Below are positions 2,883-14,484 of a stretch of DNA of 64,000 bases, piece after piece. Under the pieces are notes generated by a model. The model was not told the DNA's origin, did not search any database, and was given only the letters and a program-made list of their open reading frames with translations. The translations under genes were made by a program, and so were the position numbers. The stretch covers positions 1 through 64,000 of the forward strand of contig JAOPUZ010000072.1 of assembly GCA_025966315.1 (NCBI GenBank). Direction: 5' to 3'. Source of the DNA: Frankiales bacterium (GTDB taxonomy: Bacteria > Actinomycetota > Actinomycetes > Mycobacteriales > Jatrophihabitantaceae). Every line of letters starts with the position of its first letter. Within the stretch, counting starts at the first letter, position 1.

Positions 2883-3590
2883 TCAGCTGGCACGTCGTGT
2901 CGGCTGCTCATCCGGCGTGGGGCTGGTGAGCCACAGGACGATGGCTTGGGCTCGGGTGTCGACGCCGAGCTTTGAAAAGATGCGGTTGATGTGGTTCTTT
3001 ACCGTTTTCTCGCTGAGCCAGAGCGCGGCAGCGATCTCACCGTTACGACACCCACGGGACACATGATCCATGACCTCGCGTTCTCGGGGGGACAGGCTCC
3101 GCATCCGAAACTCATTCGAGGACACGGGCACAGGTCGCGCCCCTGATCGAGGCACCGCCGCCAACAGAGTTCTGATGAAGTCTTCGGTCGAGTACTGGCC
3201 GTGGACCAAGGTCGCGTCGGCGTGCAACCGGTCTGGCCCCGCGGGTTGCGCGGAGTCGCCAGGGCCGGCCAACAACACGATCGCGGCGAAGCGCTGGCCT
3301 CTGATCGGCAGCGCCTGCGCTGCGGCCAGGACCGCGTGGTCGAGCACCACGAGATCAATACCAGGACGTGCGGCCAGCGCGGACACATCCGAGCCGTCGG
3401 CATGTTCGCTCACGAACTGCAAGCCAGGCGTCTCACCGAGTAGCGCGCAGATGCCAGCGCGGAGCAGGATATTGGCCGTCGCGACCACGACCCTGACGTT
3501 CGCCTGTCCGGCGCGGGAATCTGACCTAATCCGTACGTGCGCACCCGCGGGCGGCGTGGCTATCAGCGCGGGGCCGTGAGCCTTGATCAT
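2883..3590 (-). CDS. LuxR-family transcriptional regulator with degenerate receiver domain
   Basis: 235 residues from ATG 3590, preferred over 3641 because GGGAG lies 8 bases upstream of it. The N-terminal half has the response-regulator fold pattern (VRVVVATANILLRAGICALL). The usual acidic pair after the first strand is replaced by Ala-Thr, although a candidate phospho-acceptor Asp remains in VVLDH. The C-terminus is a clear LuxR HTH: LSPREREVMDHVSRG and LSEKTVKNHINRIFSKLGV. No histidine kinase is adjacent. It is probably a DNA-binding regulator that does not depend on classical phosphorylation (inference). Confidence 0.85.
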   Translation of the reverse strand: MIKAHGPALIATPPAGAHVRIRSDSRAGQANVRVVVATANILLRAGICALLGETPGLQFVSEHADGSDVSALAARPGIDLVVLDHAVLAAAQALPIRGQRFAAIVLLAGPGDSAQPAGPDRLHADATLVHGQYSTEDFIRTLLAAVPRSGARPVPVSSNEFRMRSLSPREREVMDHVSRGCRNGEIAAALWLSEKTVKNHINRIFSKLGVDTRAQAIVLWLTSPTPDEQPTRRAS

Positions 3591-11771: not shown

Positions 11772-13058
11772 TTAGAGAATCTCGTTCGCCACGACCGTAG
11801 CCGTGACGATGTTGCAGTCCTTGAGTTTGGCCGGCTCGTTCTTCGGCTTGAACAACAGCCGGACGCTGATGGCCGAGCCGCTACAGGCCGCCATCACGAT
11901 GGCCATTGGCAGTACATCGTGAGTACCGCCAAGCCCGACCAATGGCGCCACTGCCGCGCCGGTACCGAATTGCACCATGCCCAGCAGGGCGGATGCGCTG
12001 CCGGCCGAATCCGGAAAGTCGTTCAAGGCCAGTGCCGTGGCGTTCGGCCCGATGAAACCGAGTGAGGTCAGCAGTACGAACATGCAGCTGATGATTCCGG
12101 CCAGACCGAAATGATTCGTGGACACAAAAACCAGCAGTACCGCGCCGGCGGACGACAGACCGATCAAGCCGTAGGTAAGTAACCGCGCCGAGCCGATCCG
12201 GGCCACGAGGTAGCCGTTCACCTGGCTGGCTGAAATCATGCCGACCGCGTTGAGCGCGAACGCCAGGCTGAACATCTGGGGACTGAGGCCATAGACATTC
12301 TCGAGGGCGAAGGAGGACCCGGCCACGTAGGCGAAGATGGCACCGAAGGCCAGGCTGCAGGCCAGCGCGTTGACGAGGAAGTTGCGGTCGGTGGCAACGA
12401 CCCGCATTGCGCGCAGGGTTGCCGCCACGCCACCGGCACTGCGTTCTTCCACCGGCAGGGTTTCGGGCAGTCGAACGGCGGCAATGGCGATCAATACCGA
12501 TCCGGCCACGGCCAGCGCCAGAAACAGGAATCGCCAACTTCCCAGCTGCAGGACCCCGGCGCCGATCTGCGGCGCCAGGATCGGACCGGCGCCGGTGACG
12601 AGCATCAGCATCGAGAAGAACCGCGCCGCGGCGGTGCCCGAATACTGGTCGCGGACAATGGCACGCGACACCACGATGCCGGCGGCGCCGCCGAAACCCT
12701 GGACGAACCGGAGGCCGATCAAGGTCATGATGTTCGGCGACAGCGCGCAGCACAACGACGCGATGACAAATGCGGCCAGCCCGAAGAAGAGCGGCCGTCG
12801 CCGGCCCCAGCGATCACTCAACGGGCCGACGATCATCTGGCCGACGGCCAAACCGACCAGACACGCGGTGAGTGAGACTTGGACGGCGGACGCGCTGGTG
12901 TGTAGGTCGTCGCCGATATCGGGCAGGGCCGGCAGGTACATGTCAATGCAGAGCGGGCCGAACGCCGACAGGGAACCCACGATGAGCAACATCCGGGCCG
13001 GTATGCGTTCGGGCTTGACCGTGCCGGCACCGTCGCGCGCCAGGATGCGGTCAGCCAT
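11772..13058 (-). CDS. MFS drug efflux transporter, Bcr/CflA type
   Basis: 428 residues with about 12 transmembrane helices. The first reads LIVGSLSAFGPLCIDMYLPA with the ALPDIGDDLHTSASAVQVSL continuation typical of Bcr/CflA (DHA1) exporters. The MFS loop 2-3 motif appears as GPLSDRWGRRRPLFFGL, and TM4-5 carries GIVVSRAIVRDQYSG. It is expected to export drugs by proton antiport. The C-terminal tail is long and charged (KPKNEPAKLKDCN). It is divergent from the riboswitch-controlled exchanger gene. Confidence 0.9.
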   Translation of the reverse strand: MADRILARDGAGTVKPERIPARMLLIVGSLSAFGPLCIDMYLPALPDIGDDLHTSASAVQVSLTACLVGLAVGQMIVGPLSDRWGRRRPLFFGLAAFVIASLCCALSPNIMTLIGLRFVQGFGGAAGIVVSRAIVRDQYSGTAAARFFSMLMLVTGAGPILAPQIGAGVLQLGSWRFLFLALAVAGSVLIAIAAVRLPETLPVEERSAGGVAATLRAMRVVATDRNFLVNALACSLAFGAIFAYVAGSSFALENVYGLSPQMFSLAFALNAVGMISASQVNGYLVARIGSARLLTYGLIGLSSAGAVLLVFVSTNHFGLAGIISCMFVLLTSLGFIGPNATALALNDFPDSAGSASALLGMVQFGTGAAVAPLVGLGGTHDVLPMAIVMAACSGSAISVRLLFKPKNEPAKLKDCNIVTATVVANEIL

Positions 13059-13253
13059 CGGCGGATTCTTCGGGCCGCGCGATCGGCTTCATAACTGAAT
13101 CCTATCTGCAGAATGCGGCGCGACTCCTGTGAGTGCAACGCGGAACACAGCTCCAGAAATGCCCGCGGTACGCGCCGACGGCGCGCGTCCGTGGGTCCGG
13201 CTGCAACTGACCCCGGTTCGAGGCGCCGTTGCCGTCGGGTATTCTCGCTGCTG

Positions 13254-13353
13254 TTGAAGGGGAGTAGCCCTCCCGCCGGTGAGTCGACACGCTGGGACGA
13301 AATTGTCCCCGGTTCCCGGGCCCGCGACCGTCGCGGGTGGGCGAGACCTTCGA
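13254..13353 (+). promoter_or_regulatory. yybP-ykoY (Mn2+) riboswitch aptamer
   Basis: All conserved blocks of the family appear in order: GAAGGGGAGTAGC at the 5' side, GGTGAGTCGACACG, then CCCCGGTTCCCGGGCC, a variable GC stem, and GCGAGACCTTC closing P1. The terminal helix pairs GAAGG with CCTTC. It is about 85 bases ahead of a cation exchanger gene. The family binds Mn2+ and usually controls Mn exporters (established knowledge). I found it by motif reading, not by a covariance search. Confidence 0.92.
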
Positions 13354-13432
13354 TCCAGATGACAGCCATTTGCTGTCGTGGGTCGAAGCGCTCGTATAAC
13401 AACGAGATTGCCTCCCGCGCCAGCGGGAGAGG
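13348..13432 (+). promoter_or_regulatory. Riboswitch expression platform sequestering the SD
   Basis: CTTCGATCC, which includes the P1 3' strand, can alternatively pair with GGGTCGAAG at 13380-13388 (one G-U), enclosing the hairpin GACAGC-CATTT-GCTGTC. Further down, CTCCCGC pairs with GCGGGAG at 13423-13429, burying the SD GGGAGAGG that ends 5 bases before the GTG start. This looks like translational control. Confidence 0.7.
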
Positions 13433-13437
13433 TTCCC

Positions 13438-14484
13438 GTGATTCACGTAGTAATGCTGCTCGGCTGCGCCGCGGTGATTTACCTGGCGTGCGAATGGTTC
13501 GTCAATGCGGTCGAATGGCTGGGCGTTGAGTTCAAGGTCGGCGCCGTCGCCGTCGGCACCATTCTCGCCGCCGTCGGAACGGCGCTACCCGAGAGTGTGG
13601 TCACGCTGGTCGCCGTGCTGTTCGGTAGTCGGCAACAAGGTGATGACATTGCGGTCGGCGCGGCCATGGGCGGTCCCCTCGTGGTCGGCACGATCGCCTA
13701 CGGTGTCGCCGGGGCCGTGCTGATCTGGCGTCGGCAACGGGCCACGGCCGGGGCAGCGATCTCCGGTTCATCGGCCGCCGAGGATCGCGACACGTTACCG
13801 GCGCCCGACCTGACTGGCGTCGACACCGGGCGGTTGGCAAAGGATCAGGCTTGGTTCCTTGCGATTTACGTCGGCAAGGTCGCCCTCGGACTGCTTGCCT
13901 TCGCCATCAAACCCTGGCTCGGCTTGCTGTTCTTCGCGGCCTACGGCGTCTACTTCTGGCGCGAGCTGCGCGCCGACGGGGCCCACGCCAGCGAGGAGGA
14001 ACTCGCCCCGCTGAAACTCCAGCCGCGGGTTGCTCGTCCGGCCCGGTGGGCGGTGCTGAGCCAGACGGCGGCCACCTTGGTGCTGATCTTCCTGGCGTCG
14101 CAGCTGTTCGTACGCCAGCTGGAATGGGCCGGCCCTGAGCTGGGTCTGTCCCCGGTGGTGGTCGCGCTGTTGCTCGCACCTGTCGCGACCGAGTTGCCGG
14201 AAGTCCTGAATGCGGTCATCTGGGTCAGGCAGGGCAAGACGCAGCTCGCGCTGGCCAACATCTCGGGCTCGATGATGATCCAGGCCACCGTCCCGTCCGG
14301 GATCGGCATCCTGTTCACGGCCTGGCATTTCGACGCGGCGCTGATCCTGGCCGCAGCAATGACGGCGTCGGCCATCAGCTACCTCATGTGGTTGCTGAAG
14401 GCCGGCAAGTTGACCGGCGGTCGGCTGGCCGGGGCGTTCGGCTTCTATGCCGCCTTCGCCGTTGGCCTGGTTTTCGTCGCCTAA
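13438..14484 (+). CDS. CaCA-family cation exchanger, predicted Mn2+ (or Ca2+) exporter
   Basis: 348 residues from GTG 13438, set by the GGGAGAGG SD; the track start at 13378 lies inside the riboswitch platform. Two alpha-repeats are visible: GTILAAVGTALPESVVTLVA and LLLAPVATELPEVLNAVIW, the inverted GxxxPE-type repeats that form the ion path in Na+/Ca2+ and cation/H+ exchangers. About ten transmembrane helices flank a cytosolic loop of roughly 40 residues. The Mn2+ riboswitch suggests the physiological substrate is Mn2+ (inference). Many actinomycete homologues are annotated simply as sodium:calcium antiporters. Confidence 0.88.
   Translation: MIHVVMLLGCAAVIYLACEWFVNAVEWLGVEFKVGAVAVGTILAAVGTALPESVVTLVAVLFGSRQQGDDIAVGAAMGGPLVVGTIAYGVAGAVLIWRRQRATAGAAISGSSAAEDRDTLPAPDLTGVDTGRLAKDQAWFLAIYVGKVALGLLAFAIKPWLGLLFFAAYGVYFWRELRADGAHASEEELAPLKLQPRVARPARWAVLSQTAATLVLIFLASQLFVRQLEWAGPELGLSPVVVALLLAPVATELPEVLNAVIWVRQGKTQLALANISGSMMIQATVPSGIGILFTAWHFDAALILAAAMTASAISYLMWLLKAGKLTGGRLAGAFGFYAAFAVGLVFVA

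Follow-up and report, generated by a model that had tools for sequence, protein, structure and literature searches.

A Mn2+ aptamer-type leader precedes a CaCA exchanger gene

The window analysed here is a stretch of 64,000 nucleotides from an uncultured-type actinobacterium, in which a Mn2+ aptamer-type leader lies directly 5′ of an open reading frame for a CaCA exchanger. The leader sits between a divergent MFS gene (11772-13058, minus strand) and the exchanger gene, which runs from the GTG at 13438 to the TAA at 14484 (Table 1). Every conserved block of the yybP-ykoY aptamer is present at 13254-13353, and all the blocks quoted by a first-pass annotation were found where it had placed them. 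The fold of 13250-13440 was more stable than expected (z=-4.1). A sigma-70 scan and an intrinsic-terminator scan of the leader gave no match, and no U-tract was seen. When orthologous leaders were compared, we found a TANNNT element 16-22 nt 5′ of the GGGGAGTA core in 53 of 62, against 1.4% of upstream control windows; given this placement, the transcript is expected to begin at the edge of P1. Neither the downstream alpha/beta hydrolase gene nor the divergent MFS gene had a match at any of 80 homologous loci, indicating that the conserved unit is riboswitch plus exchanger, and an operon with either neighbour was rejected on the same ground.

The exchanger matched the Na_Ca_ex family PF01699 in two stretches, the alpha repeats. 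Its AlphaFold model was of moderate quality (pLDDT 73.5), and the best structural matches found by Foldseek were NCX_Mj entries with E of about 1e-6 (5jdm, E=6e-7, TM 0.67/0.77). The domain match and the NCX_Mj-like predicted fold both uphold the first-pass identification of a CaCA exchanger downstream of the leader. Against TIGR00367, the YrbG-type calcium/sodium antiporter, the protein scored 66.6 bits, short of the cut-off of 179.65; it shares a superfamily with these antiporters and belongs to a distinct subfamily.

Table 1. Features of the leader and the exchanger gene in the window
Feature	Position	Strand	Basis
-10 promoter element TATTCT (TANNNT)	13240-13245	+	placement across orthologous leaders
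P1 5′ strand TTGAAGG	13254-13260	+	pairs with 13347-13353; 91% of cells paired (28 orthologues)
Conserved block GGGGAGTAGC	13259-13268	+	sequence
L1 core GGGGAGTAG, including A13263 (equivalent of the A-minor adenosine)	13259-13267	+	invariance in alignment A2; role from X. oryzae structure (PMC6754395)
P1.2 5′ strand GCCC	13267-13270	+	pairs with 13339-13342; 4/4 pairs compensatory, 100% paired
5-nt linker in place of helix P2	13271-13275	+	too short for a helix; short in 28/28 orthologues
P3.1 5′ strand	13276-13282	+	pairs with 13314-13319, one bulged U; 5/6 pairs covary
Conserved block GTCGACACG, the L3 strand; A13289 at the Mn-discriminating adenosine position	13283-13291	+	sequence; TCGACA invariant; role from PMC6754395
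P3.2 hairpin CTGGGAC...GTCCCCG	13292-13311	+	98% paired; 5/6 pairs covary
Conserved block CCCCGGTT	13307-13314	+	sequence
P4 hairpin	13320-13338	+	98% paired; 5/6 pairs covary
Conserved block GAGACCTT	13343-13350	+	sequence
L1 3′ strand GAGA and P1 3′ strand CCTTCGA (the latter common to anti-P1)	13343-13353	+	GAGACCTTCG invariant
Anti-P1 hairpin CTTCGATCC (13348-13356) / GGGTCGAAG (13380-13388); apical stem 13360-13366/13372-13378	13348-13388	+	found in 60/60 leaders
SD-sequestering hairpin CTCCCGC/GCGGGAG (13412-13418/13423-13429)	13412-13429	+	z=-3.2 alone
Shine-Dalgarno (SD) GGGAGAGG	13425-13432	+	sequence; duplex with anti-SD -8.5 kcal/mol
CaCA-type exchanger, 348 aa, proposed Mn2+ exporter	13438-14484, GTG start	+	PF01699 E=4.5e-25

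The aptamer is conserved, covaries and lacks helix P2

An alignment (A2) was made of 28 distinct aptamers from orthologous leaders, the window included. In it, the structure comprising P1, P1.2, P3.1, P3.2 and P4 was paired in 91.7% of cells, with compensatory changes on both sides at 20 of 29 base pairs. None of 500 shuffles reached any of the covariation measures, and slid control structures dropped to 36-53% of cells paired. Furthermore, GGGGAGTA, TCGACA and GAGACCTTCG were invariant in all 28, as was GAGACC, the GA-rich L1 3′ strand. A13289 aligned with A48 of X. oryzae and A41 of L. lactis, the invariable adenosine whose N7 binds Mn2+ (PMC6754395). The covariation, the conservation and the promoter placement already refute a chance GC-rich structure that is no riboswitch, a reading that a sub-threshold Rfam score (below) might seem to favour and to which we assign a negligible probability.

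The leader resembles the yybP-ykoY class (RF00080) in its L1 sequence GGGGAGUA, the L3 discriminator adenosine, a P1.1 switch helix, the arrangement of P3.1, P3.2 and P4, and Mn-handling gene partners. It differs from canonical RF00080 in having a 5-nt linker for P2 (a three-way junction), a U-C mismatch in P3.2, a score below the Rfam cut-off and no intrinsic terminator. Since none of the 28 aligned sequences has more than a short linker in the place of P2, we regard this as a P2-less three-way-junction form; the four-way junction (P2) of the crystal structures is absent from the window, and P2 was treated as a variable feature. By eye, a few relatives seemed to have a P2-like hairpin, for example L104 and L033; in the latter, a Blastococcus MAG, the aptamer (2209-2332) with its apparent P2 hairpin is separated from the exchanger downstream by about 0.7 kb, in which a small ORF seems to lie.

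The Rfam model scores this lineage below its cut-off

Searching 501 nt with cmscan placed RF00080 at 13247-13338 (+) with 24.2 bits (E=8.9e-5). This was the best match in the leader and the only RF00080 match in the whole genome at E<=1, and it amounts to about half of the 45-bit gathering score, so that Rfam at its gathering threshold reports no match in the window. In the alignment the model is unpaired over the 5′ strand of P1/L1 and ends short of GAGACC, leaving out the 3′ strand, which suggests why the score is low. We therefore built a covariance model, R1, from the 28 orthologous leaders; it scores the window leader, itself one of the 28 training members, at 98.5 bits. None of 40 other loci with the same aptamer or its relatives, nearly all of them R1 matches, reached the RF00080 cut-off, indicating that the low score stems from the library model's fit to this lineage. 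By contrast with those loci, ten proteobacterial homologues of the exchanger have leaders above Rfam's own RF00080 cut-off, among them L102, L103, L105 and L108 of Pseudomonadota with 45.8-65.5 bits. On the comparison of the two sets, the sub-cut-off score was rejected as evidence against an aptamer and put down to model coverage; failing the 45-bit cut-off weakens the database claim, not the structural one. The first-pass annotation had staked its riboswitch on a covariance match above threshold: read literally, that match is missing (24.2 against 45 bits), the sub-threshold match is nevertheless clear, and the cut-off is uninformative for the lineage. As a separate observation, when 20 actinobacterial Mn-riboswitch leaders of UPF0016, TerC or CaCA genes were tested with Rfam release 15 at the RF00080 gathering score, none gave a match.

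The same aptamer precedes other Mn-handling genes

R1 matches were present in 109 of 198 genomes of the window's class. Among the best 30 R1 loci of the class, 28 precede UPF0016 and two precede CaCA genes (the window counted), and the weaker matches examined lie mostly before TerC, with one (L153) before a further CaCA gene. Within the window's own family, R1 matches precede MntP (L002) and UPF0016 (L003). A second copy in the window's genome (L140, at G000:C49:30165-30310) scored 36.5 bits with R1 and precedes terC; RF00080 missed it, and its L3 region is divergent (GTCATCACGG). UPF0016, TerC and MntP are gene families of the established Mn2+ riboswitch, and with these shared partners, the core and the covariation, the identification of the leader as a Mn2+-riboswitch aptamer is well backed.

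We also considered a separate riboswitch class that resembles yybP-ykoY and senses another metal. Scores below the RF00080 cut-off at all 40 loci tested and the usual absence of P2 would fit such a class, against which stand the invariant L1 and L3 letters, discriminator adenosine included, gene partners that are the same as those of the canonical class, and homologous exchangers elsewhere that carry canonical RF00080. We judge it very improbable.

The aptamer and exchanger pairing recurs in three phyla

The exchanger was found in 19 of 150 genomes of the same order, most with the same leader (minus-strand loci reverse-complemented), and a scan of one genome per species added 80 exchanger loci from Actinomycetota, Pseudomonadota and Bacillota. 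A survey of aptamers ahead of CaCA homologues, as the first-pass annotation had suggested, revealed the R1 aptamer 5′ of 59 of 81 close homologues across these three phyla, a count in which some loci had trained R1 and the remainder are independent. R1 detected no aptamer at the other 22 of the 81, suggesting that the exchanger gene can run without it. In a tree of the homologues, members with the riboswitch fall in all three phyla, and its losses or gains are scattered; the tree requires 19 changes of riboswitch state, a number as low being reached in 1-2 of 500 shuffles. Because the pairing of riboswitch and pump recurs across three phyla, the exchanger is very probably a Mn exporter.

Burkholderiales members of the window's CaCA subfamily share 53-56% identity with the window protein, and all six tested pass RF00080 with 46-64 bits. 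Exchanger matches occurred in 43/43 and 6/6 genomes of two Burkholderiales genera, among which no match 10 residues longer, as sought for B. pertussis BP3410, was found. Also widespread in Burkholderiales is a sister CaCA subfamily (ATELPEK...NITGAMVFQ), whose identity to the window protein is about 30%; no RF00080 was found at the loci of it tested in that order.

Several loci had unusual surroundings. On plasmids of Massilia putida (L193) and Legionella fallonii (L197), subfamily members lie beside transposase and heavy-metal efflux genes (dmeF, P-type ATPase), a mobile metal-resistance context; RF00080 at its cut-off was not found at these two loci. A guanidine-II riboswitch (RF01068, 41.7 bits) lies close to a Burkholderiales exchanger locus (L164:993-1047). 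In Streptomyces sp. L-9-10 (L077:316-432), a second R1 aptamer lies about 2.4 kb upstream of the exchanger's own and is followed about 200 nt on by an ORF (636-1661) with a CorA-like GMN motif; it is possibly left over from an exchanger gene since lost, or else a Mn riboswitch close to a transporter of the CorA type.

P1 competes with an anti-P1 helix

P1 and the anti-P1 helix compete for the P1 3′ strand. The first-pass annotation had proposed this competition, and each of the 60 leaders examined contained the 8-pair alternative helix, three of whose eight pairs (6, 7 and 8; A-U to G-C, C-G to U-A) showed compensatory changes. The anti-P1 hairpin alone folds at -25.4 kcal/mol (z=-4.9). In L. 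lactis it is P1.1 that acts as the switch helix, holding off strand invasion from a terminator that overlaps it (PMC11087558); such logic appears to fit the window leader, although no U-tract or terminator was found there.

The annotation had also claimed that a hairpin over the SD completes an ON/OFF layout. The SD hairpin itself and the anti-P1 helix stood up, and the SD was more buried than with a shuffled spacer (0.30 versus 0.36; 38 of 60 leaders, p=0.007), a p value that, like the others for the leaders, is optimistic because the leaders are not independent by descent. The coupling of P1 to the SD did not stand: forcing P1 rather than anti-P1 gave a predicted SD openness of 0.31 versus 0.29 (60 leaders; 20 up, 13 down; p=0.25), and neither of two folding tests showed a significant shift in SD release by P1. 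In the window leader the predicted openness was 0.34 with P1 and 0.21 with anti-P1. Since forcing P1 leaves the SD closed in folding, we infer the step from P1 to output rather than read it from the folds. In a comparison of own with cross-species duplexes, the anti-P1 arm had a slight preference for its own anti-SD (p=0.049). A relay of P1, anti-P1, anti-SD and SD, which looked good by eye in single species (L008, L077), was rejected as not general. The leader upstream of position 3001 at L059 (Streptomyces sp. M41) has the GGGGTCGAAG arm and an SD hairpin-like stretch with no recognisable aptamer core, and may be a decaying riboswitch.

We propose that the transcript would start just 5′ of P1 and that Mn2+ would dock L1 (GGGGAGUA/GAGA) onto L3 (GUCGACA), stabilising P1. 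Without Mn2+, GGGUCGAAG would capture the P1 3′ strand in the longer anti-P1 hairpin, and the gene would be off or low. Candidates for the OFF output are a translational one through the SD hairpin, a Rho-dependent one, or termination at the U-less hairpin. That the OFF state is set in transcription, by Rho or a U-less anti-P1 terminator and not by hiding the SD, concerns the output step only and has, in our view, a little under an even chance: the very stable anti-P1 helix (-25 kcal/mol) in every leader, a predicted SD access that does not respond to P1, and the terminator overlapping P1.1 in L. lactis (PMC11087558) all speak for it, while the missing U-tract and intrinsic-terminator match, the SD hairpin being stronger than chance, and the slight own-species fit of the anti-P1 arm speak against it.

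The exchanger has an altered and fixed ion site

The glutamates E52 and E255, of GT(S/A)LPE type, were invariant in 81/81 homologues. NCX_Mj (MJ0091) has the fold and the inverted alpha repeats in common with the window exchanger, and its ion-site residues, whose numbers and roles we take to be E54 and E213 (the key glutamates), S51, S77, N81, S210 and D240, were compared by HMMER alignment in alpha1 and, putatively, by motif in alpha2. E54/E213 correspond to E52/E255; the others are changed, S51 to A49, S77 to G79, N81 to V83 (L or V in the family), S210 to E252 and D240 to Q282. Across the 81 homologues A49, G79, L/V83, E252 and Q282 are fixed at these altered positions, and M279 is invariant.

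The Na_Ca_ex domain, the fold match to NCX_Mj and the retained alpha-repeat glutamates could mean that the exchanger mainly moves Ca2+ or another cation, with Mn2+ merely the signal. We consider this unlikely: the other partners of the riboswitch are Mn-handling genes, the ion-site positions are both changed and fixed, and a CaCA protein under yybP-ykoY in B. pertussis exports Mn (PMC8546581).

Discussion

The B. pertussis protein, BP3410, is annotated as a calcium:cation antiporter. Its gene is transcribed from a single promoter that lies 5′ of a yybP-ykoY riboswitch. Mutation of two conserved Gs in the aptamer abolishes induction by Mn, Ca2+ is without effect, and the Mn content of cells is about 5-fold lower when BP3410 is functional (PMC8546581). 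Likened to the window exchanger by description, BP3410 is a CaCA antiporter directly under a Mn-responsive yybP-ykoY leader for which Mn export was measured; it differs in being proteobacterial and in the early transcription stop inside the leader that its authors propose (PMC8546581). V. vulnificus yrbG has also been placed under a yybP-ykoY riboswitch (PMC13274385). With BP3410 as precedent, a CaCA exporter under a Mn2+ riboswitch is already known, and CaCA genes already belong among the partners of this riboswitch; the window locus extends the pairing to actinobacteria and to a defined subfamily. In the literature searched, outside Dambach 2015 and Price 2015, two papers that may themselves name CaCA partners, no actinobacterial CaCA gene under a yybP-ykoY riboswitch was found. 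What is new here is the breadth of the association, the P2-less actinobacterial form missed by Rfam, and the invariant altered ion-site signature.

Taking locus and comparison together, we consider it highly probable that a Mn2+-sensing riboswitch of the yybP-ykoY class turns on a CaCA exchanger that exports excess Mn2+. Counting against it are an RF00080 score of about half the gathering score, the 22 of 81 homologues at which no aptamer was detected, and a predicted SD access that does not shift with P1. The first-pass suggestion that this CaCA family exports Mn2+ appears well supported by the association in three phyla and by BP3410, a precedent it had not cited. With more reserve, we favour a wider reading in which the subfamily GTALPES...ATELPE...SG(A/S)MMIQ would consist of dedicated Mn2+ exporters in three phyla, with a rebuilt ion site (the extra E252, glutamine for aspartate at Q282, and the invariant Met279), controlled in actinobacteria by a widespread P2-less three-way-junction Mn2+ riboswitch that Rfam misses and that works through anti-P1 without a terminator.

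The current Rfam model thus overlooks a form of the Mn2+ riboswitch that is common in actinobacteria. The findings link export of Mn2+ to one particular CaCA subfamily in three phyla. Many genes whose sole annotation is calcium/sodium antiporter gain from them a substrate hypothesis, and comparing the ion site with that of NCX_Mj opens to direct test how a Ca2+ exchanger turns into one that exports Mn2+.
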